A stretch of 36,706 nt of DNA from a virus: IMG/VR virus record IMGVR_UViG_3300031587_000001, positions 1 to 36,706 of that record. The stretch is one strand, 5' to 3'. A program made the translations under genes and the position numbers. How positions within the stretch are numbered: the first letter of the stretch is position 1; each line of letters begins with the position of its first letter. The notes beneath the pieces are model-generated. The model worked only from the letters and a program-made list of their open reading frames with translations. It was not told the origin of the DNA and did not search any database. This document shows, piece after piece, positions 2,455 to 36,131 of the stretch.

Positions 2455-3489
2455 ATGTCAGGAGAATTGGTGGAGTGGGAGCCTGGCCCGTTGGTTCCCG
2501 TCGGTGCAGACAAGCACACGCGCTATAGGCTGGGCAAGTTCACGAGGTGGATGGCCGGGCAGGGGCGGAGTTGGCACGAGCCGGATCTGGCAGCTTACCG
2601 GGACTACTTGTTACAACACCATAAGGCTATGACGGTGCAGGCGCACCTGTCCACGGTGCGAGCTCGTTACCAGGCCCTGGCCGATAGCAATGAGACGAGG
2701 CAGGCCCTGTTCGCAATGGCCACCAGGCAAACGGGCGACTTTGCCGGGCAGAAGGCCATCGTGGACGAGGTGATCACTCGTCTCAGGAACGCCGTTGATC
2801 CAAGGCTCTCTGCGGTCAAAGTCCCCACCTCTCAGGACAGGCCGGATAGCGCGTTCCTGCGGCTAACCCGGGAACAGGCCGAGGAGTTGATAGCGGCACC
2901 GGGCACGGACACTCTACAGGGCTTGAGAGATACGGCAGTTATTGCTCTGCTACTCTGTACCGGCATCAGGGAAGCGGAGCTTTGCTCCCTGGATGTCCCC
3001 GATCTACGGCAGCGTTTGGGTGGCGAGTTGGCTTTGCATGTTCGGGAGGGCAAAGGTTGCAAGGAGCGAACCGTCGTCTACGGTGCAGTGTCCTGGGTAG
3101 TGGTCGTGGTGGAAGCATGGATGCAGGCGGCAGGCATCGAGGGGGGGGCCGTCTTTCGGGGGCTGTATAAGGGCGGGCGGAAGCTCAGGCCGGGCCGGTT
3201 GTCGGTGCGGGCCGTGCAGTACATTGCAAGTGGCTATCCCATCGTCGTCGAAGGGCAAATGGTGACCGTCAGGCCCCACGACTTGCGCAGGACCTATGCG
3301 CGTCGGCTGGCCGAGGACGGGGTGGACCTGGTGGCCATCCAGCAGAACATGGGGCACAGGGACCAGAAGACGACGTTGGGCTACATCGGCACTCTGGACG
3401 CCAGCAGGAGACGGGCACCGGCTATTTACTCGTTTGACCTGGATAAACTCTTAAAGCAAAAGGGGCTGGATTTGCGTACACAAATTTAA
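2455..3489 (+). CDS. int: tyrosine recombinase / integrase
   Basis: This 344-residue protein belongs to the phage integrase / XerC-D family, which cuts and rejoins DNA through a tyrosine for integration, excision or dimer resolution. A SAM-like core-binding domain covers about residues 20-95. The catalytic domain follows, with candidate catalytic residues R172 (GIREAEL), K200, H275 and R278 (HDLRR), H301 (MGHRD) and Y310. All expected residues are present. The ATG start has AGAGGGGG seven bases upstream and its own promoter and inverted repeat. A hairpin terminator overlaps its 3' end. No att core is recognisable. Because a ParMR system is also present, the enzyme may alternatively resolve plasmid multimers. 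Confidence 0.93.
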   Translation: MSGELVEWEPGPLVPVGADKHTRYRLGKFTRWMAGQGRSWHEPDLAAYRDYLLQHHKAMTVQAHLSTVRARYQALADSNETRQALFAMATRQTGDFAGQKAIVDEVITRLRNAVDPRLSAVKVPTSQDRPDSAFLRLTREQAEELIAAPGTDTLQGLRDTAVIALLLCTGIREAELCSLDVPDLRQRLGGELALHVREGKGCKERTVVYGAVSWVVVVVEAWMQAAGIEGGAVFRGLYKGGRKLRPGRLSVRAVQYIASGYPIVVEGQMVTVRPHDLRRTYARRLAEDGVDLVAIQQNMGHRDQKTTLGYIGTLDASRRRAPAIYSFDLDKLLKQKGLDLRTQI

Positions 3490-10815: not shown

Positions 10816-11823
10816 ATGAAAACTTTATCGGCAATTGACATTGGATATCGCGGAGTTAAGGCGTTGGCCACCAACGACCGGCAGGCCCATTTCCCGTCTG
10901 TGGTGGGGTCGGAGGAGCGCGTGACGTTCTCGTTGGATGAGGCCAAGGTAAGTAGCCTTGTGTTGACCATGAAGGAGGGCGTTACCTGGTGCGTCGGGCA
11001 TACGGCGTTGCTTCAGTCGGAGCAGAAGGCCGGTGGGGGCCGGCGTGGCGATTGGATTTTCTCAGAGCCGTATCGTGTGCTTTTGTGTGCGGCACTCTCG
11101 GAGCTTCACAAGAGTACGGTTGCCACGTCGGTTGTGACGGGCCTTCCGTTGGAGCACTATAACACCTACGCCGTCAAGGCGCGCAGCGTATTCGTGGGCG
11201 AGCATACGTTCAGGCGCAAGGGGGGGCGTTGGCAGACGGTAACCGTCGAAGATGTCCTGGTCGTCACTCAGCCTTATGGCTCTCTTTTGGACCTGGCGTT
11301 GGCCGATAACGGGGTGGCTCTGGATAACCCCTTTGCGGTGGGGGTAGTCGGCATCTGTGACATCGGGGGGGTGACTCTGAATTTGTTGGTAACGGACAGT
11401 CTGAGAGAGGTGGGGCAATGGACCAAAGGTGATGGCCTGGGACTGTTGGCGGCGTTGGAGGAGATCGCTACCGACCTTCGGGCTGACTACCCCGGCTTCT
11501 CTCCCAAGGCATACGAGGTAGCGGAGTGGGTAGATAAGGGGACCTTCTCCTACCAGGGGCAGGAGGTGGACATCGCCCCCTATGCCGAGCATCGGTTGAG
11601 TCCGTTGGTTCGGTTGATTTTGGGGCGTATGGCCGACGTGTGGTCTGAACCGGGCCGTTACGATGCAGTCCTGCTCACCGGGGGTGGGGCGGTGGCATTG
11701 AGTAAGATGCTCAAGGCGCAGATGGACAGCGTCTATGCTAACGTGACCGTCGCCCAGGACGCCATCTTTGCCAACTGTCGGGGCTATTTGAAGTTGGCCA
11801 GGCGGTTGTGGGGCGGTGAGTAA
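10816..11823 (+). CDS. parM: ParM-like actin-family segregation ATPase
   Basis: This 335-residue protein has the actin-fold signatures: phosphate-1 loop DIGYRG (8-13), phosphate-2 region CDIGGVTLN (181-189) and the adenosine loop LLTGGGAVAL (about 286-295). Plasmid ParM/StbA proteins polymerise with ATP and push sister plasmids apart, being linked to DNA through ParR bound at a centromere. The next gene overlaps its stop and encodes a ParR-like protein, which strongly supports the call. It implies low-copy maintenance as an extrachromosomal element. An alternative, phage-capsid or DNA positioning filament (AlpC-like), is possible. Confidence 0.85.
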   Translation: MKTLSAIDIGYRGVKALATNDRQAHFPSVVGSEERVTFSLDEAKVSSLVLTMKEGVTWCVGHTALLQSEQKAGGGRRGDWIFSEPYRVLLCAALSELHKSTVATSVVTGLPLEHYNTYAVKARSVFVGEHTFRRKGGRWQTVTVEDVLVVTQPYGSLLDLALADNGVALDNPFAVGVVGICDIGGVTLNLLVTDSLREVGQWTKGDGLGLLAALEEIATDLRADYPGFSPKAYEVAEWVDKGTFSYQGQEVDIAPYAEHRLSPLVRLILGRMADVWSEPGRYDAVLLTGGGAVALSKMLKAQMDSVYANVTVAQDAIFANCRGYLKLARRLWGGE

Positions 11824-12116
11824 TGGCAGCCGTGCGTTACACCTTCACCTTGAGTGCCGTCAAAGACGCCGACGTGGTTCGGTGGTTGGAACTGCAACCC
11901 AACATTTCTGCCGCCATTCGGGAGGCATTGAAGGCGTACGTCCAGAGGCCGACTCACTACGATTTGAGTCATAAGATGGATGAGGTCTTGACGGCGGTTC
12001 GGGCGTTGCGGTACGTGGGGGCGTCTGAGCCTGTCGAAGGTGGTGGCGAAGAGCCGGAAAAGGCCGCCGAAGGGCTTGACGAGATGATAGCCAAGTTCGC
12101 GGAGGGAGCAAGATGA
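11823..12116 (+). CDS. parR: ParR-like centromere-binding protein
   Basis: The ATG at 11823 overlaps the ParM stop (TAATG). The 97-residue product begins with a ribbon-helix-helix pattern: strand RYTFTLS, helix KDADVVRWLELQ and helix ISAAIREALKAYV. An acidic, flexible tail rich in Glu and Ala follows, ending in a helix (LDEMIAKFAEGA). This matches ParR/StbB, whose RHH half binds the centromere while the C-terminal tail contacts the ParM filament. Its end overlaps the FtsK-like gene by ATGA. The nearby inverted-repeat cluster at 13451-13579 and the DNA upstream of ParM are candidate binding sites. Confidence 0.78.
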   Translation: MAAVRYTFTLSAVKDADVVRWLELQPNISAAIREALKAYVQRPTHYDLSHKMDEVLTAVRALRYVGASEPVEGGGEEPEKAAEGLDEMIAKFAEGAR

Positions 12117-13447
12117 CTATTTTACTTGGTGTGTTGGTGGTTGTAGTAGGTGTTGTGCTCTACATTGTCGCCTTAAATCTGTACAACCAGACGAATGAGA
12201 TTTTGCATCATCGGACCATGCTTAGGATGGATAAGGAGGTGCGCCGTCAGGCGATGAACATGCCGGATAAGATCACTCCTGATCCAGTTACAGGTTGCTA
12301 CCCCGTGCTGGGAGAACCGGGGGGCAGGCGGTTCCTGGATTTGAATAGGGGCCTGTCCTTCGACTTTAACGGGTTGGTGAGCGCAGCGCCGGAGATAGCC
12401 AGGCCTGAGCAGTTTCGCCGGATGTTGCAGGCAGGCGGTTGGCCTCCAGGCAAGGGTGCGAATGACATTCCCGTGTTGTTGGGTCGGTCAGTGGAGTGGC
12501 CTACGGATGTGCCATTGGAGTCGGTGGTTACAAACCCCGACATTAAGGCATTGACATTGGGTGTGACTATCGGCGAGGATGGGCAACAGGAGACGGTCAA
12601 GGCGGATATGGGTAAGTTAGTCCACATCGCTGTGGGTGGCTCCAGTGGGTGGGGCAAGTCGGTGTTTCTGCGCTCATTGGGTTATCAGTTGGCGCTCTCG
12701 GGAACTCCGGTGGACCTGGCCATGATAGATTTGGAGGGGGCGACGCTGGCCCCGTTTGCCAGATGCGAGCGATTGCTGTATCCCATTGCGGAGACCGAGG
12801 GGGATGCTCTGGCCGTGTTGTCGGCGCTGACGGGCGAACTTGAGCGACGGAAAAGTTTGTACGCACAGATTCCTGGGGTGGACAGTTTGGCGGCTTACAA
12901 TGCCAGGGCCGATGAACCTTTGGCGGCATTGGTGGCCATCATAGACGAGGCGACGGCGTTGTTGGGTGATAAGTCGGTTGAGTCTGCCTTGCGGACTTTG
13001 GCATTGAGGGCGCGGAAGTATGGCCTTTGGTTGGTTATGGCCGGCCAGGATTGGAAAGCGTCAAGTCTCGATACGGCCATCAGAAATCAGTTGTCCAGTC
13101 GCATTCAGTTCAAGGCTATGAGTAAGGGTCAGAGTCGGGTGTTGCTGGAGCGGAGCGGCGCTGAGAGTCTGGACGTGGAGGGGCGGGCGTTGGTCATTTT
13201 GCCCGGCAAGGAGATGTTCACCATGCAAGCTCCTTTCGTCTCTGCTAAAACCATTCTGGATGACTGTTCGGACGGGGGGCCGAGGTTCCCTATGCCAGAA
13301 GGCAATGGCTATGACTCCAAGTTGGCAGAGCGGGTCAGGGCTCTGTCACGTGAGGGGATGGGACTAGGGGCCATCTCCGATGCGGTGTTTGGCTATCGCA
13401 ATGCCAAGAGGACGGGCGAGATCAAGAGGATTCTAGGGCTGGAGTGA
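12113..13447 (+). CDS. FtsK/HerA-family DNA translocase, membrane-anchored
   Basis: This 444-residue protein overlaps ParR by ATGA. One membrane helix is at the N-terminus (about residues 3-24, LLGVLVVVVGVVLYIVAL). The motor domain has Walker A GGSSGWGKS (175-183), Walker B VAIIDEA (D278, E279) and a C-terminal segment that looks like a small helix-turn-helix (GMGLGAISDAVFG). FtsK/SpoIIIE/TraB-type motors pump double-stranded DNA, during chromosome segregation or conjugation. Its position directly behind ParM/ParR suggests plasmid segregation or transfer rather than virion packaging, which the terminase handles. No relaxase is encoded in the window. Confidence 0.85.
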   Translation: MTILLGVLVVVVGVVLYIVALNLYNQTNEILHHRTMLRMDKEVRRQAMNMPDKITPDPVTGCYPVLGEPGGRRFLDLNRGLSFDFNGLVSAAPEIARPEQFRRMLQAGGWPPGKGANDIPVLLGRSVEWPTDVPLESVVTNPDIKALTLGVTIGEDGQQETVKADMGKLVHIAVGGSSGWGKSVFLRSLGYQLALSGTPVDLAMIDLEGATLAPFARCERLLYPIAETEGDALAVLSALTGELERRKSLYAQIPGVDSLAAYNARADEPLAALVAIIDEATALLGDKSVESALRTLALRARKYGLWLVMAGQDWKASSLDTAIRNQLSSRIQFKAMSKGQSRVLLERSGAESLDVEGRALVILPGKEMFTMQAPFVSAKTILDDCSDGGPRFPMPEGNGYDSKLAERVRALSREGMGLGAISDAVFGYRNAKRTGEIKRILGLE

Positions 13448-15081: not shown

Positions 15082-16486
15082 CGCCCTCTGGTTGCCGGTG
15101 TCGGGGCCACAGTTGGCCGCTTACCTGTGCGAGGCCGACGAGTTGTTTTACGGTGGGGCAGCAGGAGGAGGAAAGTCGGATTTGCTGTTGGGTTTGGCCC
15201 TCACGTCACATCTCAAAAGCATCGTATTCAGGAGGGAGTTCCCCCAGCTCAGGGATTTAGTTCTTAGGAGCCATGAGATACTAGCCGGTACGGGGGCTAC
15301 GTACAATGCCTCCAGTGGAGTGTGGCGAGGGATACCGGGGGGCCGGATGTTGGAGTTTGCGTCTTGTGGCTACGACAAGGACTTGAGCAAGTACAAAGGC
15401 CGGCCTCACGACGGGGTGTTCTTCGACGAGGTGGCGGACTTTAACGAATACCAGTACCGGTTTCTGACGGCCTGGGCCAGGACCACGGTTGAAGGGCAGC
15501 GGGTGAGAGTAGTAGCAGCAGGCAACCCACCAACGACGGCAGAGGGCCGGTGGGTGGTGGAGTATTGGGGACCCTGGTTGGATGAGAAATATTCCAACCC
15601 GGCCGAGCCGGGGGAGTTGAGGTGGTTCGCCAGGGTAGGCGACGAGGATGTGGAGGTTGGGAGTGGGGAGCCGTTCTCGCACAACGGCGAGATGGTTCAA
15701 CCCAGGTCGAGGACGTTCATTCCGGCCCGTCTGTCAGACAATCCGTATCTGGCCGACACGGGTTATGGCGCAGTATTGCAGGGATTGCCTGAGCCTTTGC
15801 GCTCCCAGTTGTTGTTTGGGGACTTTACCATTGGCACGACCGATGATCCCTGGCAGGTCATTCCGACCGAGTGGGTCAGGCAGGCAATGGCCAGGTCGAG
15901 GGAGAGGCCGAAGGACGAGGAAGGGAAGCCGGTTCCTCTGTCGGCGTTAGGAGTGGACGTGGCCAGGGGGGGAGGAGATCGGACGGCCATTGTATCCAGG
16001 TACGACAACTGGTTTGGCGAAGTCAAGAGATATCCGGGTAGCGAGACGCCGGATGGGCCGTCGGTTGCAACTCTGGTCGTCAAAGAGATGGGAGGCGATA
16101 CTGGAGCGCAGGTCAACGTGGACATCATCGGCGTGGGAGGGAGTGTCTACGACGTTCTGAAGTCGCAAGGGGTGAAGGCCAAGGGCATCAACTTTGCCGA
16201 AGGCACGACGGCCAGGGATAAGACGGGCCGGTTCAGGTTCAGGAACGTCAGGGCCAAGTGTTATTGGAAGTTCAGGGAGGTGTTGGACCCGGCGAGTGGG
16301 GACGACGTTTCGTTGCCCGACGATCCGGAGTTATTGGCCGACCTGACGGCGGCCAGGTGGAGTTTGACTGTGGGCGGTATATTGGTGGAGGCCAAAGAGG
16401 ACATCGTGAAGAGATTGAGGCGGTCGCCCGACGTGGGGGATGCGGTTGTGTTGGCCAGTATTCCTAGGAGGACGTTGTTACTTTGA
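14987..16486 (+). CDS. terL: terminase large subunit
   Basis: The product is about 499 residues from ATG 14987, which has a GGTGGGGGG stretch upstream. The start is uncertain because it overlaps the small subunit by 95 bases; an in-frame TTG near 15090 is an alternative. The ATPase half has Walker A GAAGGGKS (57-64) and Walker B GVFFDEV (D147, E148). The RNase H-like nuclease half begins with GVDVARGGGD (322-331, D324) and has VDIIGVGG (D379). It powers DNA packaging into proheads at the portal and cuts the concatemer. It is uninterrupted by an intein, unlike the portal gene that follows. Confidence 0.95.
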   Translation: MSLTQTSSGPELLLSYLSGPERELLDRTIAGDALWLPVSGPQLAAYLCEADELFYGGAAGGGKSDLLLGLALTSHLKSIVFRREFPQLRDLVLRSHEILAGTGATYNASSGVWRGIPGGRMLEFASCGYDKDLSKYKGRPHDGVFFDEVADFNEYQYRFLTAWARTTVEGQRVRVVAAGNPPTTAEGRWVVEYWGPWLDEKYSNPAEPGELRWFARVGDEDVEVGSGEPFSHNGEMVQPRSRTFIPARLSDNPYLADTGYGAVLQGLPEPLRSQLLFGDFTIGTTDDPWQVIPTEWVRQAMARSRERPKDEEGKPVPLSALGVDVARGGGDRTAIVSRYDNWFGEVKRYPGSETPDGPSVATLVVKEMGGDTGAQVNVDIIGVGGSVYDVLKSQGVKAKGINFAEGTTARDKTGRFRFRNVRAKCYWKFREVLDPASGDDVSLPDDPELLADLTAARWSLTVGGILVEAKEDIVKRLRRSPDVGDAVVLASIPRRTLLL

Positions 16487-19176
16487 GGAAGCCAGGTGTT
16501 TTGACGAGAGCGAAGGCGGCGTATAAGTTCTATAGGGACGGTTGGCAGCAGTTCGGGATAGTGCCCAGGGAGCGGGGGCGTGGTGTGTTGGCCATCAACA
16601 CGTGGGGCACGAAGGCGGCGCCGTTCATCTGGCCCGAATGGAGGATGGGCCAACCGATCTGGCAACTCGTGGATTATCCCACGTATGCGCAGGAGGGTTA
16701 CAACGAGAACACGGTGGTTTATAGTGCCATCATGTACAAGGTGCGTTCTATCGTCTCTGCCCCGCTGAGGGCCTACACAGGCACTTTGGACGAGCCGGAG
16801 CTGTTGCCTCCAGACCATCCACTGTCTCAACTGGTGGCACGTCCCAATAGGTTCATGAGTTGGCCCGAGTTCCAGGGGTTGGCTGAGGTGTACTTTAACC
16901 TGTCAGGCAATTGTTACATCTACGTGGATAAGGGCACTCCGGCTCTGTACCTGTTGAGGCCCGACCTGGTAAAGATAGTGCCCCGACCGGGCAAAAAAGA
17001 GTTGATGGGCTTCCTGTATGTGCCGGAGGGTAAAGGGCAGGCCGACGGGATTCCCTATTTGCCTCAAGATATAATCCACGTCAAGTTACCAAACCCGTTG
17101 GACGAGTTGGATGGTCTGGGGTATGGCATCCCGCCGGTGTCGCCGGCAGCCAGGTCCGTTGACGTGGACAATCAGGTTACCAGGTTTCTCAAATTGTTCT
17201 TTGACAAAGGGGCCATGCCGCCGGGGTTGCTCAGCTACGACTACGAGTTGGACGACGAGGACATAGCGCGGGCCAGGGAGAGATGGCAGGAGCAGTACGG
17301 CGGGGTGGCCAACTGGACGGACGTGGCCGTGCTGGACAAAACGGGCAAATATCAAAGGCTGGGTTTGACTTTTGACGAGATGGGATTTGAGGGGCTGGAC
17401 GAGCGTAACGAGGCACGCATCTCAGGGCCATTTGGTGTGCCACCTATCCTGATAGGAGCCAGGGCGGGGCTCAAGCACGCCACTTACTGTTTACCGGCTA
17501 TGGCCAGAATTAGTACGCCAGGTGGGTTGAAGCACATTGCCAATATCGAGCCTGGGGATCGTGTTTGGAGCTTCGTTGATGGGGAGTTACAAGAGAAGTC
17601 GGTCATTTGGTCAGGCCAGGTGGGCAAGAAAAAACTCTATGAGATCAGGACAAAGAATCGAACCTTGCGGGCTACCGGAAACCATCCGGTACTCGTTCGC
17701 ACACCAGGCAAAAAGGGAGGTGTGCCTAACCATTTACGTCACGCTGGCTATGAGTGGCGACGGGTGGACGAGTTGACTACCGATGATTGGGTAGTAGAGC
17801 CAAAGGCGTATCCAGATTGTAATATCCAATTTGCCTTTACCCCTGACCATTATCGCTTCTTTGGTGCGATTATTGGTGATGGGACAGTGGATGCGGGGCG
17901 TGGCCAGGTTCGTATGGCAATTCCGCGAAGTGATGACTGTCATGATGAATATGTAGCCCTTGCGCAAAAGCTCTTTACAAAAGATAATGGCGGCCCTATT
18001 CGGGTCGCTGAATGCCCTCGTTCCTTCAACTTCGTGGCTACAAAGTGGACCAGGCGACTTGTCGAGTTGGGGCTTGGTGATCGGGCGCACACAAAGAGGA
18101 TACCGGGGTGGGTATATCAGTTATCAAGGGTGGAACGGTTGGCGTTTTTGGCCGGTTTGATTGACACGGATGGAAGTATTGACAAGCGAGGAGCGTTGAC
18201 AATTGGCTTTACCAGCGAGGAATTGACACATGATGTACGTCATTTGTTCTTGACGACGGGGTTTCAATGCACCAATGTCTATCGGCGCGTTACGACACCG
18301 GATATGCTTCCCAGTCCCGGCACGAAGGACCAATACGATTTCTATCGCTTCGTTGTTTCCTCCGCCGCCATGTTGGCTGAGATACCATTCACCAATTCTA
18401 CTTATAGGCATCGAGTAGAAGGGAATAGCCACCGGATTAGGGATTGTGGGAAGGACGCGGTGAGGGCAGGATTGGATAACCATTTGGGCTTTTATCGGGT
18501 CAAGGAAATCATTGAGTTGGAGCCCGAATCGGTCTATGACATAACGGTAGAAGGTGGCCATAGTTTTGTTGCTGACGGCGTGGTAGTGCATAATTCTAAC
18601 TATGAGGAGGCCAGGCGGGCCTTCTGGCAGGATACGCTGGTGCCGGAGCTGCGCTGGTTCGAGATGGAGTATCAGTACTATCTGCAAGGGGACAAAGGCG
18701 AGTTTGTGATGTTCGACTTGTCCAAAGTCCCGGCGCTGGAGCCACCGGCCAAGGAGCGGGCGGACATCGCCAGGGATGCGTTCCGGGCGAGTGGCATTAC
18801 GCGCAACGAGTACCGGAGTATCATCGGGCTTGATCCGGACCCCGACGGAGATGTCTACCTGGTGAGCCTGGGAGTCATCGAAGTCCCGGCCTCCCAGCAA
18901 GGGGAAGAGACGGAGGAAGGAGCGCCGGAGGCGGAGGAACAGGCGGCGCAGGTCGGGTTGAAATCGGGCGTTGGAATTCGGGAGGTGTTGGCCATCGTCC
19001 ATGAGGCCGGGCGGCAGGCGCTGAAGAAGAGGAAGATGGTCTCCTGGCCGGACGTTTTGCCGCAGGTGCAGGAGCATCTGGACAACGAGGCCATTCGTAC
19101 TGTGTTCCGGCAGGCTACGGAGGAAGGCTGGAGCGTGGAGGCTATGACTAACAAATTAAGGAAGGTGCTGGCATGA
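16483..19176 (+). CDS. portal protein, interrupted by an in-frame intein
   Basis: The start is TTG 16483, overlapping the terminase stop, with AGGAGG at about 11 bases. The precursor has 897 residues. Exteins 1-335 and 705-897 together give a 528-residue HK97-type portal. Recognisable parts are the N-terminal wing (YPTYAQEGYNENTVVYSAI), the stem/crown part and the conserved segment ending KHATY joined to SNYEEARRAFW. The dodecameric portal forms the DNA entry vertex and binds terminase. The intein sits exactly inside the conserved KHATY-SNYEEARRAFW motif. The last 60 residues form an acidic then helical tail (REVLAIVHEAGRQALKKRK). The next gene overlaps by ATGA. Confidence 0.92.
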   Translation: MRKPGVLTRAKAAYKFYRDGWQQFGIVPRERGRGVLAINTWGTKAAPFIWPEWRMGQPIWQLVDYPTYAQEGYNENTVVYSAIMYKVRSIVSAPLRAYTGTLDEPELLPPDHPLSQLVARPNRFMSWPEFQGLAEVYFNLSGNCYIYVDKGTPALYLLRPDLVKIVPRPGKKELMGFLYVPEGKGQADGIPYLPQDIIHVKLPNPLDELDGLGYGIPPVSPAARSVDVDNQVTRFLKLFFDKGAMPPGLLSYDYELDDEDIARARERWQEQYGGVANWTDVAVLDKTGKYQRLGLTFDEMGFEGLDERNEARISGPFGVPPILIGARAGLKHATYCLPAMARISTPGGLKHIANIEPGDRVWSFVDGELQEKSVIWSGQVGKKKLYEIRTKNRTLRATGNHPVLVRTPGKKGGVPNHLRHAGYEWRRVDELTTDDWVVEPKAYPDCNIQFAFTPDHYRFFGAIIGDGTVDAGRGQVRMAIPRSDDCHDEYVALAQKLFTKDNGGPIRVAECPRSFNFVATKWTRRLVELGLGDRAHTKRIPGWVYQLSRVERLAFLAGLIDTDGSIDKRGALTIGFTSEELTHDVRHLFLTTGFQCTNVYRRVTTPDMLPSPGTKDQYDFYRFVVSSAAMLAEIPFTNSTYRHRVEGNSHRIRDCGKDAVRAGLDNHLGFYRVKEIIELEPESVYDITVEGGHSFVADGVVVHNSNYEEARRAFWQDTLVPELRWFEMEYQYYLQGDKGEFVMFDLSKVPALEPPAKERADIARDAFRASGITRNEYRSIIGLDPDPDGDVYLVSLGVIEVPASQQGEETEEGAPEAEEQAAQVGLKSGVGIREVLAIVHEAGRQALKKRKMVSWPDVLPQVQEHLDNEAIRTVFRQATEEGWSVEAMTNKLRKVLA
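17488..18594 (+). mobile_element. intein with LAGLIDADG homing endonuclease in portal
   Basis: The 369-residue insertion starts at Cys336 (CLPAMARIST) and ends at His703-Asn704, followed by Ser705 as the +1 nucleophile. Block B is ATGNHPVL (TxxH). LAGLIDADG motif 1 is FFGAIIGDG and motif 2 is FLAGLIDTDG. Block F/G is YDITVEGGHSFVADG and VVVHN. All splicing residues are present, so self-splicing should be active. The two dodecapeptides each keep a catalytic acid, so homing is also plausible. The segment is by eye more AT-rich than the exteins. Confidence 0.93.
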
Positions 19177-28179: not shown

Positions 28180-28325
28180 CCTGGGAGTTAGTAGAGTTGC
28201 GCCTGTGCAGGGACGTGTATCACTGTCTGCCTTCCGAGCTTGCGGAGGAAGATTGGTTCAACGTCGCTGCACATTTGGTGTGTATGGAAGGAGAAGCGGA
28301 GGCAAAAGGCAGTCCACATGGCTAA
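28137..28325 (+). CDS. tail chaperone T extension (gpGT-like, made by -1 frameshift)
   Basis: The frame read after the shift goes from about 28131 to TAA at 28323-28325, in the -1 frame of the chaperone. It begins at CTG AAG GTG right at the slip and has no own ribosome site near the GTG at 28137. The extension, about 64 residues, is helical and acidic-aromatic (LWLKTGDPPWELVEL, LAEEDWFNVAAHLVCM). In lambda the T part binds the major tail protein while the G part binds the tape measure. The fusion product would span 27826-28325. The tape-measure start lies 8 bases before its stop. Confidence 0.85.
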   Translation: MRVAKHLWLKTGDPPWELVELRLCRDVYHCLPSELAEEDWFNVAAHLVCMEGEAEAKGSPHG

Positions 28326-30063
28326 CGTCGTTGAACTTATCGTTTTAGGGAAAGACGAGGCGTCCAAGGTATTGGGTGGAATTGGGGACGCCGTATCAAG
28401 TCTGGGCACGGTCGCCGTTGGGGCTGGGGCGGTGGCGGGGGCTGCCATTATCGGCGTGGGGGCAGCCTGTGCCAAGCTGGCAATAGACGCTGCTCCTCTG
28501 GCCGACATTAAGGCGTCCTTTGAAGGGATTGCTGAGGCGTCGGGCACTACCTCGGAGGCGGTGTTGGCTGACTTCAAAGAGAACACCGCCGGGATGTTGA
28601 GCAACGCCGATGCGATGGCCGCCTACAACGAGGCGGCTCAGTTAATTACGCCCACGTTTGCCAACCAACTCCCCGAAGCGATGCAGTATCTTTCCAAGGT
28701 TTCGGCGAGCACCGGCGAAGACCTGGACTACCTGGTTGATTCCCTGGTGCGTGGTGTGGGGCGGGAGTCTGTAGCTATCCTCGACAACCTCAAAGTTCAG
28801 GTTGATAGGCAGGCGGCTCTCGAGGCCGGGGCGGAGGCTTTGGGCAAGACTGTGGATGAGATGTCCAAAGCCGAGAGGCAAGAAGCCCTGATGACCGAGA
28901 CCATGAAGAAATTGGTGGAGAACACGGCTGCCCTGCCGGATGTCACGGAGAGTGCCAACACTAAGATAAAGGCTTTGCAGGCCTCTTTCACAGATGTAAA
29001 AGACAGTATCGGGTTAGCCCTTCAACCGGCTCTGTTGGCTGTCCTGACACCATTGGGTGATCTGGCGGAGAGATATGGCCCTCAGATTACCACGTGGGCC
29101 GAGGAGGCAGGCGTATGGTTAGGTGAGAATTTGCCCGCCGCCATTGACTGGCTCGGGGAGAAGTGGAATGAGTTGTGGCCACAGGTTTCAGGAGCCGTCA
29201 GTACGGGATGGTCCATTGTTGGTCCTATTCTCAGCACTCTAGGGGGTTGGTTTTCCAGTGAAGGGCCTGACGCCATCTCCGGTCTTCAGGCGGTGTGGGA
29301 GGACAAGTTTGGCTGGATTGGTGCCTGGGTCCAGGAGAACATGCCCCTTATTCGGGATACCATTGAAGTGGTCATGTTGCGGATAGAAGAGGTCACAAGT
29401 TTTGTGTTGACCGGCATAACTGCCTTTTGGGAATCTCATGGAGAGCAAGTCATGGCCATTGTGACGAGTGCTCTGGATATTTTGTGGACCCTGTTCGACG
29501 TCGGGTTGAGAAACATCTTTGACGTGGCTAAGCTAATTATGCAACTGATCACCGGCGACTGGGAAGGGGCAGGGGAGACGTTGAAGGGCATTGCTTCGCG
29601 GACCTGGGAAGGGGTGGAGACCATCTTTGGGGACGCCCTTTCGATTTTGGGCAACCTGGTAGACATTGGGCTGTCGGATGCTGTGCAGGCAGTGGTTGAC
29701 TGGTATCAGGGCATGTTGGATGCAGGCAAGCACATAACCTCCGGTTTGAAGCAGGGGATACTCGACGGGATGTCCTCTGTCAAGGACGCCCTCGTCAATG
29801 CGGTCAACGATGCCATCGCAGCAGCCAAGGCAGCTTTGGGTATCAGCTCTCCGTCCGGAGTTTTCATGGGTATCGGAAGTCTGGCCATGCAGGGTTTGGC
29901 CCTGGGTATCACCGGTTCGGCCAACGTACCCGCTGCGGCGGCAGCGACGGCAGTGACCAATATGGCCCACACCACCAACAATTATCTGACCATGAATGTC
30001 CAGACCAGGGCTACCACGGAGACGGTCCGACAGGGGTTCGAGACGATGAGGGCGTTGGTATGA
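28318..30063 (+). CDS. tape measure protein
   Basis: From ATG 28318 the product has 581 residues; an earlier in-frame start at 28240 would lie inside the chaperone extension. A hydrophobic Gly/Ala stretch (about 31-56) is followed by long helical regions and a second Trp-rich helical block (WLGENLPAAIDWLGEKWNELW). Near the C-terminus comes a motif common in tape measures (ISSPSGVFMGIGSLAMQGL). At about 0.15 nm per residue it predicts a tail near 87 nm. It lies between the tail chaperone and the distal tail protein, the standard place. No lytic transglycosylase or peptidase domain is visible. Confidence 0.9.
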   Translation: MANVVELIVLGKDEASKVLGGIGDAVSSLGTVAVGAGAVAGAAIIGVGAACAKLAIDAAPLADIKASFEGIAEASGTTSEAVLADFKENTAGMLSNADAMAAYNEAAQLITPTFANQLPEAMQYLSKVSASTGEDLDYLVDSLVRGVGRESVAILDNLKVQVDRQAALEAGAEALGKTVDEMSKAERQEALMTETMKKLVENTAALPDVTESANTKIKALQASFTDVKDSIGLALQPALLAVLTPLGDLAERYGPQITTWAEEAGVWLGENLPAAIDWLGEKWNELWPQVSGAVSTGWSIVGPILSTLGGWFSSEGPDAISGLQAVWEDKFGWIGAWVQENMPLIRDTIEVVMLRIEEVTSFVLTGITAFWESHGEQVMAIVTSALDILWTLFDVGLRNIFDVAKLIMQLITGDWEGAGETLKGIASRTWEGVETIFGDALSILGNLVDIGLSDAVQAVVDWYQGMLDAGKHITSGLKQGILDGMSSVKDALVNAVNDAIAAAKAALGISSPSGVFMGIGSLAMQGLALGITGSANVPAAAAATAVTNMAHTTNNYLTMNVQTRATTETVRQGFETMRALV

Positions 30064-32462
30064 GTGATTGGAAGGTCATTGTCCCGGAGGCGACCACAAA
30101 TTGCGTCTTAAACCCCAGCGCCGAGGCGACGGGCAACTACGCCGCCGTAGGGGGCGCGGTCACCAGAGTAACCACCTATTCGGCCTTTGGTCTCCGCTCT
30201 TATCGGGTTCAGACGGCAGCAGACAACCAGGGTGCTACGTTTACTCTGTCAGCCCTGGCCAACGCCATCCATTACGTGACCATGTGGGTGCGTGGCACTT
30301 TGCCTGCATCGTGGGATTGGTCGCTGGATAACGTCAACTGGCACGTACCGACTCTACTTGAGGCCATTGACGCCGATTGGGGTTTGTATGGCCATCAGTT
30401 CCCGGCGGCGGAGGCCAACGGTTCGACTACGTTGCGCGTCTATCAGAATGGGGCGGGGGCAGGAGATTTCTACCTGGATGCTATTCAGGTAGAGGCAAAG
30501 GGCTATTGGACGACCTATTGTGATGGGACGCAGGAGGGTTGTGAGTGGCTCACCGTGATGCACGCCTCGACCAGCAGTCGGTCGGGGCAATCCAGAGCCG
30601 GGGGCCGGGTGCGAGACTTGCAGGACGACTACGGCCTGGACATCGGCGGGATGATGGGCGTGGGGGCTCCGCCACAGAAAGTATGGGTTGATGAGTACGC
30701 CTTTTTGCCGGGCGGGGAGTTGGACAGCATCAAGATTCCTCCCCGGCCTTTTACTTTGACCGGCGTCGTTCGGGGTGTCAGTTATGCCGATTTACACAGT
30801 AAGCGGCAGGCCCTCACCTCGGTTCTCTCCCCGGATACGTACCCTAAACAGGATGATCGGCCACAGCCGGTTCGGTTACGGTACACGGGTTCGGCGGTTC
30901 AGAAGCAAATTGCCGCCCATTACGAGGGCGGGCTGGAGACGGCCATTCGGGTTGACGACCCGTGTTATTGGGAGCGGGTGAGCGTAAGGTTTCTGGCAGA
31001 CGATCCGTTCTGGTACGAGGTGGGGGAGTCGGCGGCGGTGTTGGATTCGAGTGATAGCGCGACGTTCAGGATTGTGGCGGCCAGGCTGAGGAGTACGGGG
31101 CAGTGGAACGCCCTGGGGCCGCCGAACGTGGCGGGAACGTATACCCAAATCCTGGCGATAGCGGAAGACGACGTTTACGTTTATTTCGGCGGCGGCTTTT
31201 TGAACTTTGACAATATCCCCAACGCAGACTACATCGTTCGGTACAATAAACAGACGGGGGCCTGGTCCTCACTTGGTACGGGGATGAATGGGAACGTTTG
31301 GGCTCTCACACTGGCCCCTGACGGGACGCTATTTGCGGGAGGCTCGTTCACTCTGGCCGGGGGTGTCGCGGCGAACTACGTAGCCAGTTGGAACGGCGCA
31401 GCCTGGTCCCCTTTGGGGGTAGGAACGAACCATTTTGTCTTTGCCTTGGCTGTTGGGAATGATGGGTTGCTGTTTGTGGGGGGGCGGTTCACTCTGGCCG
31501 GGGGTGTCGCGGCGAACTACGTAGCCAGTTGGAACGGCGCAGCGTGGGCTGCCTTGGGTGCGGGTATGGACGATTGGGTTTACGACCTCGTTGTTGCCCC
31601 ATCAGGGGCTTTGTTCGCAGGCGGACGGTTCACCGCAGCCGGAGGAGTAGGGGCAAGTCGCGTAGCCAGGTGGCTTGACGGGGCCTGGGCCGCGCTGGGT
31701 GCGGGGGTGGACAACACCGTGTGGGCTTTGGCCGTTACGGGCGCGGGTGTATTGTACGTTGGCGGCGAATTCCATAATGCGGGGGGGAGTGCAGCGCTCC
31801 ACGTGGCGAAGTGGGATGGAGCCGCCTGGTTTACCCTCAGCTCAGGGGCTAGCGCAATAGTATACTCATTGGAGATCGGTCCCGATAGCGTCCTATTTGC
31901 CGGTGGCACGTTTTCGGTGGCAGGAGGCGTTGCCGTGCCGAGAATGGCCCGTTGGAACGGTGCATCCTGGGCGCACGTTGACATCAGCCTTCCTGGCCCT
32001 CCTGGTGTTATGGCTATCCATACCGGGTGTGCGGACCCGGTCATCTCACGGAATTATGATATCTGGGTTGGATTCGATACCACCGGCACTGGCTACTACG
32101 CCGGCCTGGTATCGGTATTAAACGATGGTACACAGGCTGCGTTCCCTCGGATTATCATTAGCAGGGGAGGTGGCACGAGTGCTACTGTGAACGAAGTCAG
32201 GAATGAGACGATTGGCCGGGAACTGCTTTACAGTTATAGTCTGTTGGACGGCGAGGAGTTGACTGTGGATTTACGCCCAACACAAAGGGATGTCGTGTCC
32301 AGTTTCTTCGGGGAGCGGTTCGATGCAGTTCTGCCCGATTCGGACCTTGGAGATTTCATATTGAGGCCGGGGAGTAACAATGTCACGTGCCTCATTGACG
32401 TGGCTGGAGGGCCGACGGTGGAGGTCGGCATGATATGGAAGAGTACCTACAAGAGTTTCTGA
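30060..32462 (+). CDS. distal tail protein with inserted beta-propeller, copy 1
   Basis: This 800-residue protein starts in an ATGA overlap with the tape measure. The N-terminal domain (1-165) is a jelly-roll like carbohydrate-binding modules. Residues about 195-330 match the siphovirus Dit (Sipho_tail) belt domain (PPRPFTLTGVV, LRYTG, VRFLADDPFWYEVG). Six 47-residue propeller repeats then run from about 355 to 645 (pattern VxALAxxxDGxLFxGGxFTxAGG, VAxWNGAAWxxLGxG), with a poorer seventh. The C-terminus (LLYSYSLLDGEELTVDLRP, GDFILRPGSNNVTCLI) is the second Dit half. So the propeller is inserted inside Dit. I infer a tail-tip hub that also binds glycans. The next gene is a paralogue with the same layout. 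Confidence 0.8.
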   Translation: MSDWKVIVPEATTNCVLNPSAEATGNYAAVGGAVTRVTTYSAFGLRSYRVQTAADNQGATFTLSALANAIHYVTMWVRGTLPASWDWSLDNVNWHVPTLLEAIDADWGLYGHQFPAAEANGSTTLRVYQNGAGAGDFYLDAIQVEAKGYWTTYCDGTQEGCEWLTVMHASTSSRSGQSRAGGRVRDLQDDYGLDIGGMMGVGAPPQKVWVDEYAFLPGGELDSIKIPPRPFTLTGVVRGVSYADLHSKRQALTSVLSPDTYPKQDDRPQPVRLRYTGSAVQKQIAAHYEGGLETAIRVDDPCYWERVSVRFLADDPFWYEVGESAAVLDSSDSATFRIVAARLRSTGQWNALGPPNVAGTYTQILAIAEDDVYVYFGGGFLNFDNIPNADYIVRYNKQTGAWSSLGTGMNGNVWALTLAPDGTLFAGGSFTLAGGVAANYVASWNGAAWSPLGVGTNHFVFALAVGNDGLLFVGGRFTLAGGVAANYVASWNGAAWAALGAGMDDWVYDLVVAPSGALFAGGRFTAAGGVGASRVARWLDGAWAALGAGVDNTVWALAVTGAGVLYVGGEFHNAGGSAALHVAKWDGAAWFTLSSGASAIVYSLEIGPDSVLFAGGTFSVAGGVAVPRMARWNGASWAHVDISLPGPPGVMAIHTGCADPVISRNYDIWVGFDTTGTGYYAGLVSVLNDGTQAAFPRIIISRGGGTSATVNEVRNETIGRELLYSYSLLDGEELTVDLRPTQRDVVSSFFGERFDAVLPDSDLGDFILRPGSNNVTCLIDVAGGPTVEVGMIWKSTYKSF
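31346..31402 (+). repeat. 57-bp exact repeat (propeller blade), unit 1
   Basis: Identical to 31487-31543, offset 141 bp (47 codons, one propeller blade). Exact identity at synonymous sites points to a recent blade duplication or conversion. Confidence 0.85.
31487..31543 (+). repeat. 57-bp exact repeat (propeller blade), unit 2
   Basis: Second copy of the 57-bp blade repeat, one blade downstream of unit 1. Confidence 0.85.
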
Positions 32463-32477
32463 TAGAAAGGGGAGTTC

Positions 32478-35006
32478 GTGAAGAAATTATTGGTTGCCGT
32501 CCTGGCGCTTTCTTTGCTTTCGTATCGAGGAGGGGCCGTGTCTGATTGGTCTGTTATTGTACCCGAGGCTACGGTAAATCTCATAGCCCATCCCAGCGTC
32601 GAGGCCGCCGATATCAGCGCGTTCACGGTCGTCAACATGGCTGTATTGGCCAGGTCGTCGGCCTATAGCAAGTGGGGGGCTTATTCGTTGAGCATCACGC
32701 CAGGCGGAGGGCCGAACAACACGGGGGCGTATTACCAGGTCACCGGTGCAGCGACGACGACCTACACTTTCTCCGTCTGGGTGCGTGGGGTAGTGGGCGA
32801 TGCCTATAGGATACGGCTGATTGATGGTCTGGGGGTTACATTGGGCACGACGACCTTTACCGGCACCGGCGACTGGCAGTTGGTCGAGGTTACGGGCACG
32901 ACTGCAGTTAACGTGACGGTACGCTGTACTTTGACCAAAGACGTTGCCGGGGGCGTGGTCTTTTATGCCGACGGCTGGCAACTGGAACAGAAGGGATATC
33001 GCACCACGTACTGTGACGGTGACCGGGAAGGTTGTGAGTGGCTCGGCCCGCCCCACGCCGCTACCAGCCAGAGGTCGGCGCTGTCCAGGGCGGGGGGGAG
33101 AATCAGAGACCTGCAAGACGACTACAGTCTGGATGTTGATGGCATGGAAGGAGTAGGGATGCCGGTTCAGCAGTTGAGCGTAGACAGATATGCCATTCTG
33201 CCGGGTGGTCAGGCAGGCAACGTCAAGACTGCATCTCGCGAGTTCGTCTTGACAGGGCACATCCACGGCGTTACATCTTTGGACTTCCACTCCAAACGGG
33301 GAGCGTTGCTCACTCTGTTCGAGTCGGAGGCGTACCCTGGCTCGCAGTCGGTAAGGTTCCGGTACGCCGGGGCGGAGGTGGAAAAGCAGATCTCTGCCTA
33401 TTACGTGACGGGGCTGGAGGCGTCCATTTTGGCCACGGACCCCTGCTATCGGGAGAAGGTGGGGCTGCGGTTCATAGCACCCGACCCGTTTTGGCACGAA
33501 GTGGGGGAGTCCTCTCAGATGTTGGATGCAGAGGATACTCTCACCGTTCGCATCATCGCCGCCAGGCTCAAGAGTACGGGGCAATGGGATGGGTTGGGGC
33601 CTCCGGCAGCACCGGGGATAGCCGTCTACGCACAGGTCAGGGCCATTGCTATTGCCAAGGATGGTTCGGTTTACGTCGGTGGGGACTTCCAGAACTTTAA
33701 CAACAACGCAAACGGTGACTACATCGTGCGTTGGGATCCGGCCACCGCCACCTGGTCTCCACTCAACACCGGGTTGGACGGGATCGTCGAGGCCATCGCC
33801 ATCTCACCGAGCGGGCAGGTCTACATCGGCGGGCAGTTCACGGACATCGGCGGTGGGCCTGGGGGAACGTACAATCGAATCATCCGATGGGACCCGGTGA
33901 CGTCCACCTGGGCGGCGTTAGGGGCGGGGCTTAACAATACGGTACTCTCTCTGGCTTTCGCCCACAACGGGGATTTGTACGTTGGCGGTTGGTTCACCGA
34001 CCTGGCAGGTGGCGGGTTGGCCAATGCGCACTACGTTGCCAAGTGGAACGGCGCAGTGTGGTCGGCCTTGAACGTCGGGTTGAACCACATCGTCGAGGTC
34101 ATTGCCGTCGCTCCCGATGGGCAGGTTTATTGTGGGGGGAACTTTAACGATGTCTGGGGAGGGCCTGGGGCGACGTACAACTACATTATTCGTTGGGACC
34201 CGGTGAACTCTGTGTGGGCGGCGTTGGGTTCCGGTCTGAACGGGATGGTGTACGCCCTGGCCGTTGGGGGAGATAACGTCGTCTTCGTGGGAGGCAATTT
34301 CACGGATGTCTTTGGGGGGCCGGGGGGGACGTACAATTACGTTGCTCAGTGGAACTGGTCATCCTGGGCCGCTTTGGGTAGCGGAACGAACGGCATCGTT
34401 CGGGCCTTGGCTATAGGGCCGGATGGGTTGTTGTACGCAGCCGGTCAGTTCACAGCAGCGGGCGGGTTGACGTTTATCGAGCGACTGGCAAAGTGGAACG
34501 GCTCGGCGTGGGCGGCGTTGGATGCAGAGATGCCGGGGCTGTTGACGGGATTGGCTATCGCCCTGGGGAAGTCCGATCCGGTTATCGTGGAGAACTATGA
34601 CATTTTCGTTGGGTTCACCACGACGGGCACAGCCAAGCGAGCCGGCAAGGTCACAGTCATGAGCGAAGGCACAGCAAACGAGTTTCCCCGCATCGTAGTA
34701 AGCAGATCGGGTGGTACATCGGCCCGTCTGTTGGCCATCAGGAACCACACAACGGGCAAGGAGTTGTTGTTCAATTACAGTCTGCTGGATGAGGAGACGT
34801 TGACCATTAGTCTATCGCCGAATAAGAAGAGCGTGGTGTCCGGTTTCTTTGGACCCCGGCCGGAGGCCGTTTTGCACAACTGTGATTTCGGCGAGTTCGC
34901 TTTGCAACCGGAAGGCAACGAGATCACCGTTTTTGTCAACATCGTCGGCGCACCTACGATCACGGCCTACATGGTCTGGCAAGACACATACGTGGGACAG
35001 GACTGA
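32478..35006 (+). CDS. distal tail protein with inserted beta-propeller, copy 2
   Basis: The frame from GTG 32478 gives 842 residues. The domain order equals that of the upstream gene: jelly roll, Dit belt (REFVLTGHIHGV, VGLRFIAPDPFWHEVG), six or seven propeller blades (VRAIAIAKDGSVYVGGDF, IIRWDPVTSTWAALGAG) and Dit C-half (LLFNYSLLDEETLTISLSP). The two are clear paralogues by tandem duplication. Two starts are possible. GTG 32478 (AAAGGGGAG nearby) adds 20 residues that look like a Sec signal peptide (MKKLLVAVLALSLL). GTG 32538 (AGGAGG nearby) gives MSDWSVIVPEAT, aligning with MSDWKVIVPEAT in copy 1. The second start is structurally more sensible. Confidence 0.78.
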   Translation: MKKLLVAVLALSLLSYRGGAVSDWSVIVPEATVNLIAHPSVEAADISAFTVVNMAVLARSSAYSKWGAYSLSITPGGGPNNTGAYYQVTGAATTTYTFSVWVRGVVGDAYRIRLIDGLGVTLGTTTFTGTGDWQLVEVTGTTAVNVTVRCTLTKDVAGGVVFYADGWQLEQKGYRTTYCDGDREGCEWLGPPHAATSQRSALSRAGGRIRDLQDDYSLDVDGMEGVGMPVQQLSVDRYAILPGGQAGNVKTASREFVLTGHIHGVTSLDFHSKRGALLTLFESEAYPGSQSVRFRYAGAEVEKQISAYYVTGLEASILATDPCYREKVGLRFIAPDPFWHEVGESSQMLDAEDTLTVRIIAARLKSTGQWDGLGPPAAPGIAVYAQVRAIAIAKDGSVYVGGDFQNFNNNANGDYIVRWDPATATWSPLNTGLDGIVEAIAISPSGQVYIGGQFTDIGGGPGGTYNRIIRWDPVTSTWAALGAGLNNTVLSLAFAHNGDLYVGGWFTDLAGGGLANAHYVAKWNGAVWSALNVGLNHIVEVIAVAPDGQVYCGGNFNDVWGGPGATYNYIIRWDPVNSVWAALGSGLNGMVYALAVGGDNVVFVGGNFTDVFGGPGGTYNYVAQWNWSSWAALGSGTNGIVRALAIGPDGLLYAAGQFTAAGGLTFIERLAKWNGSAWAALDAEMPGLLTGLAIALGKSDPVIVENYDIFVGFTTTGTAKRAGKVTVMSEGTANEFPRIVVSRSGGTSARLLAIRNHTTGKELLFNYSLLDEETLTISLSPNKKSVVSGFFGPRPEAVLHNCDFGEFALQPEGNEITVFVNIVGAPTITAYMVWQDTYVGQD

Positions 35007-35009
35007 GAA

Positions 35010-36131
35010 ATGGCAGGGGACTACGAAATCTGGCTGACAACGGACTACGGCGTGAGGCTCGCTCTTCTGGACGACATTCTATGGTTCAGCGCCTCCCGCG
35101 ACACGGGCAAAATCGGGTTTTTCGAGGGCCAATTCAGAAAAGCGTTCGATACGGACCTGGTTCATCCCGACTACATGATTCAGGTGTGGCGTGCTCCGAC
35201 GGGGGAGCGGCTATCGCTGTGGCGGCCCTATTTCATCAGGAAGTGGCGGTTCGAGACTTCCGGCAGTGAGGAGTACTTGTCGGTGTCAGGCCCTTGTGTG
35301 AACGACCTTCTGCGGCGAAGGATCGTCGCGGCCTACGCCGGATCAAGCCAATCGGATAAGTCGGGTTACGCCGACGACATGATGAAGGCCATCGTGACTG
35401 AGGCCATGTCGAACAGTGCCGCGCCTGTGCCCGAAGCAGGCACGAGAGCCTGGCCCAACCTCTCCGTGGCCGTCAATCTCAGTGCGGGGCCTTTGTTAGT
35501 TGAGTCGTGCTCATTTGACGTTTTGTTGACGTCATCCGGGGGAGGAATTTTATCGGATATCGCCAAGGCAGCCAGGGAGGCGGGCACGGAGGTGTTCTTT
35601 GACGTCGTACCTAACGTAGTCGCCTCTAATAGTATCAGTTTCCAGTTCCGAACTTACACGGGGCAGCCGGGCATGGACGTTTCCAACAGGGTGGTCTTCG
35701 ATAAGGAAATGGGTAATTTTGCGGACCCCTATTTGGAATATGACTTTTTGAACGAGGAAAACTACATCTACGCCGGTGGCCGGGGAGTTGGGGATGATAG
35801 GAATGTCCAGCAGGTTTATGACGCTGGGCGCTATGGGGTCAGCTGTTGGAATCGTTGTGAAGGATTTGCCGACGCCCGGGACCAGGAAGCTGCCAATGGT
35901 GTTCGTGAGGCCGGTAGGGCTGCCCTGGAAAGAGGCCGCCCCAAGGTGCGGGTAGGTGGCGCGCCTATTGATACAGAGGGGGCTCGATTCGGCAGGGATT
36001 GGGATTTCGGATATAGGGTGCGGGCCAGGTATCGTGAAATGGAATTTGTCAGTATCGTCAAGTCTATTATCATCGGCGTGGATGAGGGGGGGCGTGAGAT
36101 TATCTTGACCAAGTTGGAGCGCGAAGAGTGA
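35010..36131 (+). CDS. Gp37-like tail hub / baseplate protein
   Basis: The 373-residue product starts at ATG 35010, three bases after the previous stop. It resembles the siphovirus ReqiPepy6 Gp37-like family: YEIWLTTDYGVRLALLDD at the start, FIRKWRFETSGSEEYLSVSGPCVNDLLRRR, and a C-terminal RVRARYREMEFVSIV and REIILTKLE. Such proteins follow Dit and form the tail hub (lambda gpJ / Tal-like), to which fibres attach. The adjacent partial fibre gene, which starts in a GTGA overlap, fits this. No peptidase motif is visible. Confidence 0.8.
   Translation: MAGDYEIWLTTDYGVRLALLDDILWFSASRDTGKIGFFEGQFRKAFDTDLVHPDYMIQVWRAPTGERLSLWRPYFIRKWRFETSGSEEYLSVSGPCVNDLLRRRIVAAYAGSSQSDKSGYADDMMKAIVTEAMSNSAAPVPEAGTRAWPNLSVAVNLSAGPLLVESCSFDVLLTSSGGGILSDIAKAAREAGTEVFFDVVPNVVASNSISFQFRTYTGQPGMDVSNRVVFDKEMGNFADPYLEYDFLNEENYIYAGGRGVGDDRNVQQVYDAGRYGVSCWNRCEGFADARDQEAANGVREAGRAALERGRPKVRVGGAPIDTEGARFGRDWDFGYRVRARYREMEFVSIVKSIIIGVDEGGREIILTKLEREE

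Follow-up and report, generated by a model that had tools for sequence, protein, structure and literature searches.

Why would one phage genome carry two neighbouring genes for the same tail-hub protein, each enlarged by a whole beta-propeller? The question is raised by IMGVR_UViG_3300031587_000001, a linear 36.7 kb virus record of IMG/VR that was analysed over its full length of 36,706 nucleotides (the window). Two long genes, gene 1 (30060-32462) and gene 2 (32478-35006), were confirmed as open between these coordinates. The original prediction, made from the sequence alone, held that they encode two tandem distal tail (Dit) proteins with a carbohydrate-binding-like N-terminus and a propeller inside Dit, and Pfam, PHROG, AlphaFold, and structure and profile alignments bear this out. 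We lean towards the view that both products are evolved-Dit adhesins of a Chloroflexota phage and that gene 2 also gives rise to an exported copy, by means of a long and a short start.

A seven-bladed propeller within Dit

Each protein consists, from N- to C-terminus, of a domain resembling the carbohydrate-binding module (CBM) family CBM_4_9, the ring half of Dit, a closed seven-bladed propeller, and the galectin half of Dit. AlphaFold models of each protein alone had a mean predicted local distance difference test score (pLDDT) of 94.6 and a predicted template modelling score (pTM) of 0.88 for protein 1 (alignment of 61 relatives), and of 90.1 and 0.86 for protein 2 (alignment of 51 relatives). 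The repeats match the Rax2/DUF5122 (delta-60) propeller family in Pfam in protein 1 (E 5e-11) and protein 2 (E 5.9e-14), and are flanked on either side by Sipho_tail and SPP1_Dit matches that score below the curated cut-offs in the window proteins. Protein 1 is also matched by PHROG 106 (minor tail) and PHROG 33 (Dit), the phrog_106 match straddling the repeats. Among the 61 relatives, Rax2 was matched in 58, SPP1_Dit in 43, and CBM_4_9, which is sub-threshold in protein 2, in 18. A sequence search of Protein Data Bank (PDB) chains gave no match to the window proteins.

How many blades are there? Both proteins contain seven W-x-x-L-G repeats and hence seven blades, where six to seven had been predicted; the predicted blade length of 47 residues holds for the repeat spacing of protein 1, while in protein 2 the spacing is mostly about 50 residues. 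The predicted structures close these repeats into a ring. With VIA-align, the best solved matches of the protein 1 propeller were RACK1 (Z 28.0) and a seven-bladed designer protein (Z 27.8), with a root-mean-square deviation of 2.3-2.7 over about 265-272 residues to RACK1-type chains and the designer protein. The protein 2 propeller reached Z about 27 to RACK1-type seven-bladed chains.

The flanking segments form one Dit fold, as had been predicted. Once the propeller columns are removed, the family profile aligns end-to-end with actinophage Dits (264 columns, probability 99.9, E 4.8e-34), and the C half alone aligns with plain actinophage Dits at E 5.6e-14. A 277-residue tail component in BFVD, a small viral Dit, spans the insertion in structural alignment (629 alignment columns, TM 0.76 by target), and the Foldseek list for protein 1 includes the SPP1 Dit and the Bxb1 tail tip. 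Thus, an N-terminal ring or belt and a C-terminal galectin-like part are both present, even though the window proteins on their own fall short of the Pfam cut-offs. The propeller occupies a short linker of plain Dits, ahead of the strand that leads to "NxGd..ayP". Gene position agrees: the pair lies directly after the tape measure gene and before a Gp37/Tal-type gene, the same order of tape measure, Dit and minor tail genes as in actinophages with plain Dits. Profile alignments and models together support insertion of the propeller in Dit. We found no description of such an insertion in the open-licence literature. The best viral structure match in BFVD, A0A6J5MW16 (E 9e-34, 24% identity), is a 596-residue protein of an uncultured Caudovirales phage and is probably an unannotated relative.

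A widespread family and an unusual pair

Is this architecture peculiar to the window? With single proteins as queries, neither viral contigs nor annotated phages yielded a relative (for P0002, allowing E up to 10 produced only weak partial matches), and two-row and seven-row alignments were needed instead. Profile searching of viral contigs then gave 88 relatives, of which 80 were kept. Since the search pattern sits in the CBM, it would overlook any Dit that does not carry this CBM. The CBM, ring half and propeller were detected by domain scan in all kept relatives except one incomplete gene, and the C half in all sufficiently complete ones except L063 and L087, where it went undetected. The architecture occurs at about 75 distinct IMG/VR loci, nearly always as a single copy. 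The 19 viral records searched whole have one full-length copy each, and two copies were found in the window, L018 and L092. The architecture had been called one not known to be described; this holds for open-licence papers, but single-copy relatives are common in metagenomic phages. No phage isolate was among the relatives that our searches turned up. At L088:5947-9564, a relative of 1,205 residues has a far larger propeller region, spanning about residues 377-1045; this Dit may contain two propellers.

The two window proteins share 46-48% identity overall. They differ most in the CBM (37%, against 52-53% in the Dit parts), and their CBMs are of different types with different nearest kin. The approximately unbiased (AU) test rejects the two genes as each other's nearest relatives (p 0.0154), which disfavours a recent tandem duplication. 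The genes had been described as duplicated; the tandem arrangement stands, but they are not nearest-relative duplicates. Because the AU test rejects nearest kinship and the CBM types differ, the pair looks old or recombined. Mixed rings with two glycan-recognition surfaces are possible.

A leader and an internal start

Gene 2 offers a competing reason for two copies. Its first 20 residues, read from 32478, resemble a signal peptide, and the part that aligns with gene 1 begins only at the GTG at 32538; the junction reads MKKLLVAVLALSLLSYRGGA followed directly by VSDW. In-frame, stop-free leaders stand upstream of the conserved "MSDW" start in 18 relatives as well as in window gene 2. They have a basic start, a hydrophobic core and an end that falls nearly always between A and Q or between A and D, followed by a Y/F/W-x-P box; a YLP-like box follows in 17 of 19. 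One gene of the set, L029, is cut at its 5' end.

Signal peptides were called by a heuristic scan for a basic n-region, a hydrophobic core and small residues before the cleavage site, and the leaders fit this Sec pattern. The scan scored 18 of 77 Dit-propeller genes and 8 of 560 other open reading frames (Fisher p 3e-12, uncorrected for kinship); L088 is probably spurious among the former, and L094 among the latter is a Dit relative. Presence and absence of the leader require five label changes on the tree. In two close pairs the ratio of nonsynonymous to synonymous substitution rates (dN/dS) in the leader is 0.30 and 0.48, and the leader is under purifying selection. Taken with the leaders of many single-copy relatives, that of gene 2 suggests that one form may serve the virion and another be exported. 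We found no relevant report of exported tail proteins in the open-licence literature. At three loci where the Dit itself has no leader, we noted separate proteins with a signal peptide. The one at L043:10577-11422, which has a region weakly resembling CBM_4_9 (E 0.025) and a tail rich in PT, might fill an exported-adhesin role. Those at L061:13862-14110 and L068:13769-14161 have a YLP box, a PT-rich linker and an "NGSFEEG" stretch resembling the start of a CBM.

If the long form is exported, what supplies the tail? The old start codon is retained inside leader-bearing genes, usually behind a strong Shine-Dalgarno sequence. Mean Shine-Dalgarno energy at 12 MSDW-type internal starts was -8.1 kcal/mol, compared with -2.8 kcal/mol at other in-frame ATG/GTG codons, and none of 20,000 permutations was as strong. 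In L007, L023 and the window, valine has replaced the methionine and is encoded by GTG. No further Dit was found with phrog_33 or phrog_106 in leader-bearing phages (the L025 and L039 records are short), and each single-copy phage searched had one detected Dit-type gene, which must therefore be the source of its tail hub.

A simpler explanation is that both genes encode ordinary evolved Dits, both of them virion proteins; they would assemble into mixed rings or act as alternatives in adhesion, with a glycan specificity each, and the leader of gene 2 would be unused or a hydrophobic N-terminal segment, with translation mainly from the internal GTG. This accords with the strong Shine-Dalgarno sequence at 32527-32535, with different CBMs on a common scaffold, with the many relatives that have no leader, and with CBM-bearing evolved Dits being known adhesins. 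Against it stand the leaders of 19 family genes, window gene 2 included, with signal-peptidase-like ends, a YLP box and purifying selection, and the strong Shine-Dalgarno sequence that also precedes the long start. We regard it as plausible, at somewhat less than an even chance.

Could the two genes instead have divided the labour fully, with gene 1 providing the virion Dit and gene 2 made for export alone, its product masking receptors or sticking to the surface? Gene 1 has no leader while its nearest relatives mostly do, and gene 2 has both a leader and a different CBM. However, gene 2 retains its strong internal start. Loss of a leader from gene 1 is not supported either, a placement outside the 14 leader-bearing rows being equally good (AU p 0.52). 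We consider a complete split unlikely.

A third alternative holds that the leader is no export signal but anchors the Dit hub to the host membrane during tail assembly, or stays in the virion as a hydrophobic arm. It would suit L025, L028 and L039, in which a leader is present, no convincing internal start is seen and no other Dit-type gene was found. The near-universal ends at A-Q or A-D followed by a YLP box are instead the pattern of exported host proteins, and we think an anchor or arm quite improbable.

The YLP box and the probable host

Which host would read such a leader? The NCBIfam model NF050076, "YLP-box putative sorting motif", matched the L020 leader at 17 bits (cut-off 15). Relatives are held by two Anaerolineae metagenome-assembled genomes (MAGs), and in the class of one of these NF050076 was above its cut-off in 49 of 60 sampled genomes. 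The boxes there are mostly at protein C-termini and sometimes behind an N-terminal hydrophobic leader. In the class of a CSP1-3 bin, none of 43 genomes had a YLP box at a stricter E limit, at which the first class gave about 33 of 60. Relatives also occur in Armatimonadota and Lokiarchaeota bins, which may be mis-binned. Together, the relatives in Anaerolineae MAGs and the distribution of the YLP box point to Chloroflexota, and the host is probably Anaerolineae-like. The likeness suggests a phage leader modelled on the export signal of the host. The open-licence literature held nothing relevant on Chloroflexota phages.

A proposed role for the two proteins

We propose that the Dit halves of both genes would form a ring at the tail tip. 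At its rim, the N-terminal CBM and the propeller, the latter placed between the ring part and the galectin body, would add surfaces with which to adhere to the glycans of a Chloroflexota (Anaerolineae-like) host; both copies use one scaffold and present different CBMs. Gene 1 starts at the stop of the tape measure gene and has no leader, and its product would simply be the virion form. In gene 2, as in many single-copy relatives, translation would begin at two in-frame starts. Its short form, from the internal start with the strong Shine-Dalgarno sequence, would join the tail; the Sec signal peptide would take its long form out of the infected cell, and this receptor-binding Dit could there cover receptors and lessen re-adsorption or superinfection. 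We infer ring assembly and glycan adhesion by analogy with known evolved Dits, and export from the sequence of the long form; that export would serve to mask receptors or to exclude superinfection is conjecture. More tentatively, with something short of even confidence, we extend the idea to a lineage of Chloroflexota phages with a tail hub in two forms, through a dual start or tandem genes, one of them Sec-exported with a host-like YLP box and masking receptors. The tandem pair may split jobs or form mixed rings.

Several observations weigh against a dual-start export. Many relatives have no leader at all, and that of window gene 2 is short and without a YLP box. NF050076 matches only 2 of the 19 leaders, the model being too short and strict to serve as a universal leader test. 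L025, L028 and L039 have the leader but no convincing internal start that would give their tails a cytoplasmic Dit. Finally, late co-expression with the tail genes makes a role in exclusion less obvious than early expression would.

Gene neighbourhood and features

The window encodes, in order, an integrase, a primase, a ParB-like partition protein, an FtsK-like ATPase, terminase, portal, protease, major head protein, a head-tail adaptor and the tape measure protein, followed by the two Dit genes and a Gp37-like minor tail protein (Table 1). The ParB-like protein and the FtsK/SpoIIIE-like ATPase (10816-13447) occur in the same phage as the integrase (2455-3489), and a plasmid-like prophage stage is possible. 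The portal protein (16483-19176, 897 residues) has a long C-terminal extension past the portal match.

Table 1. Features of the tandem Dit locus and its neighbours (window coordinates)
Feature	Position	Strand	Evidence
Tape measure protein, upstream neighbour	28240..30063	+	phrog_58 E 2.4e-26; stop overlaps gene 1 start (ATGA)
Gene 1 CBM_4_9-like jelly-roll domain, N-terminal (residues 1-160), no signal peptide	30060..30539	+	all-beta, pLDDT mostly >93; CBM_4_9 in 18/61 relatives
Conserved motif YWTTYCDGTQEGCEW, end of CBM domain, family search signature	30504..30548	+	nearly invariant in alignments A2 and A4
Gene 1 Dit N-terminal ring/belt half (residues 183-338)	30606..31073	+	phrog_33, Sipho_tail; hhalign with plain Dit of Streptomyces phage Success E 4e-11
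Gene 1 predicted seven-bladed beta-propeller inserted in Dit (residues 346-676)	31095..32087	+	Rax2/DUF5122; AlphaFold; VIA-align Z 28
Gene 1 Dit C-terminal galectin-like half (residues 677-800)	32088..32459	+	SPP1_Dit; hhalign with plain Dits, C half alone E 5.6e-14
Shine-Dalgarno AAAGGGGAG for long (leader) start	32466..32474	+	sequence; -7.8 kcal/mol duplex
Gene 2 leader VKKLLVAVLALSLLSYRGGA, Sec signal-peptide-like, in frame, no YLP box	32478..32537	+	sequence scan
Internal Shine-Dalgarno GAGGAGGGG for short start	32527..32535	+	-12.3 kcal/mol; unsurpassed among in-frame codon positions in gene
Gene 2 internal GTG start and CBM_4_9-like domain (short-form residues 1-165), CBM type unlike gene 1	32538..33032	+	CBM_4_9 E 8.6e-4, sub-threshold; NCBIfam NF048003 just above cut-off; nearest CBMs differ
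Gene 2 Dit N-terminal ring/belt half	33099..33554	+	alignment with gene 1, 53% identity; AlphaFold
Gene 2 predicted seven-bladed propeller	33576..34628	+	Rax2 E 5.9e-14; VIA-align Z 27 to seven-bladed chains
Gene 2 Dit C-terminal galectin-like half	34629..35003	+	SPP1_Dit 17 bits, below cut-off 25; AlphaFold
Gp37-like minor tail protein, downstream neighbour	35010..36131	+	Sipho_Gp37 E 5.8e-20

Comparison with known systems

Evolved Dits are a main route to extra glycan specificity in siphophages of monoderm bacteria. With an entire propeller built into Dit throughout a broad family of phages, the theme reaches phages of which our searches found no isolate. Should the leader be functional, a protein of the tail structure would have a second role beyond the virion, which would be a simple way to mask receptors and one open to test. 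The leader is moreover a sequence link from these orphan phages to hosts that use the YLP box; the box follows the leader in the phages, and in Anaerolineae takes that place less often than the C-terminal one.

A propeller in a host-recognition device is not in itself without parallel. The receptor-binding protein of Staphylococcus phage phi11 reportedly contains a beta-propeller, but within a separate protein and not inserted in Dit. Plain actinophage Dits, such as gp62 of Streptomyces phage Success and its relatives, match the window in gene order and in profile, and differ in their length of about 285-347 residues and in having no propeller. The ring and galectin halves of SPP1 gp19.1 (PDB 2x8k; Foldseek E 3.5e-6) likewise match, and SPP1 has neither propeller nor CBM. 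The insertion point neighbours the loop that follows the first galectin strand and that bears the arm in the p2 Dit (PMC7291167); the p2 insert, however, is a short arm that docks the receptor-binding protein. The nearest parallel is with the evolved Dits of lactococcal, Lactobacillus and Bacillus cereus siphophages, which bind host saccharides and in which the inserts described so far are one or two CBMs in loops of the galectin domain (PMC7291167, PMC10688798). As in those proteins, where the insert adds carbohydrate-binding capacity at the rim, the Dit core is split by an internal insertion, and the regions on both sides align to classical Dit. Here the insert is a seven-bladed propeller in place of a CBM, the CBM_4_9-like domain is N-terminal, and many members have a signal-peptide leader.

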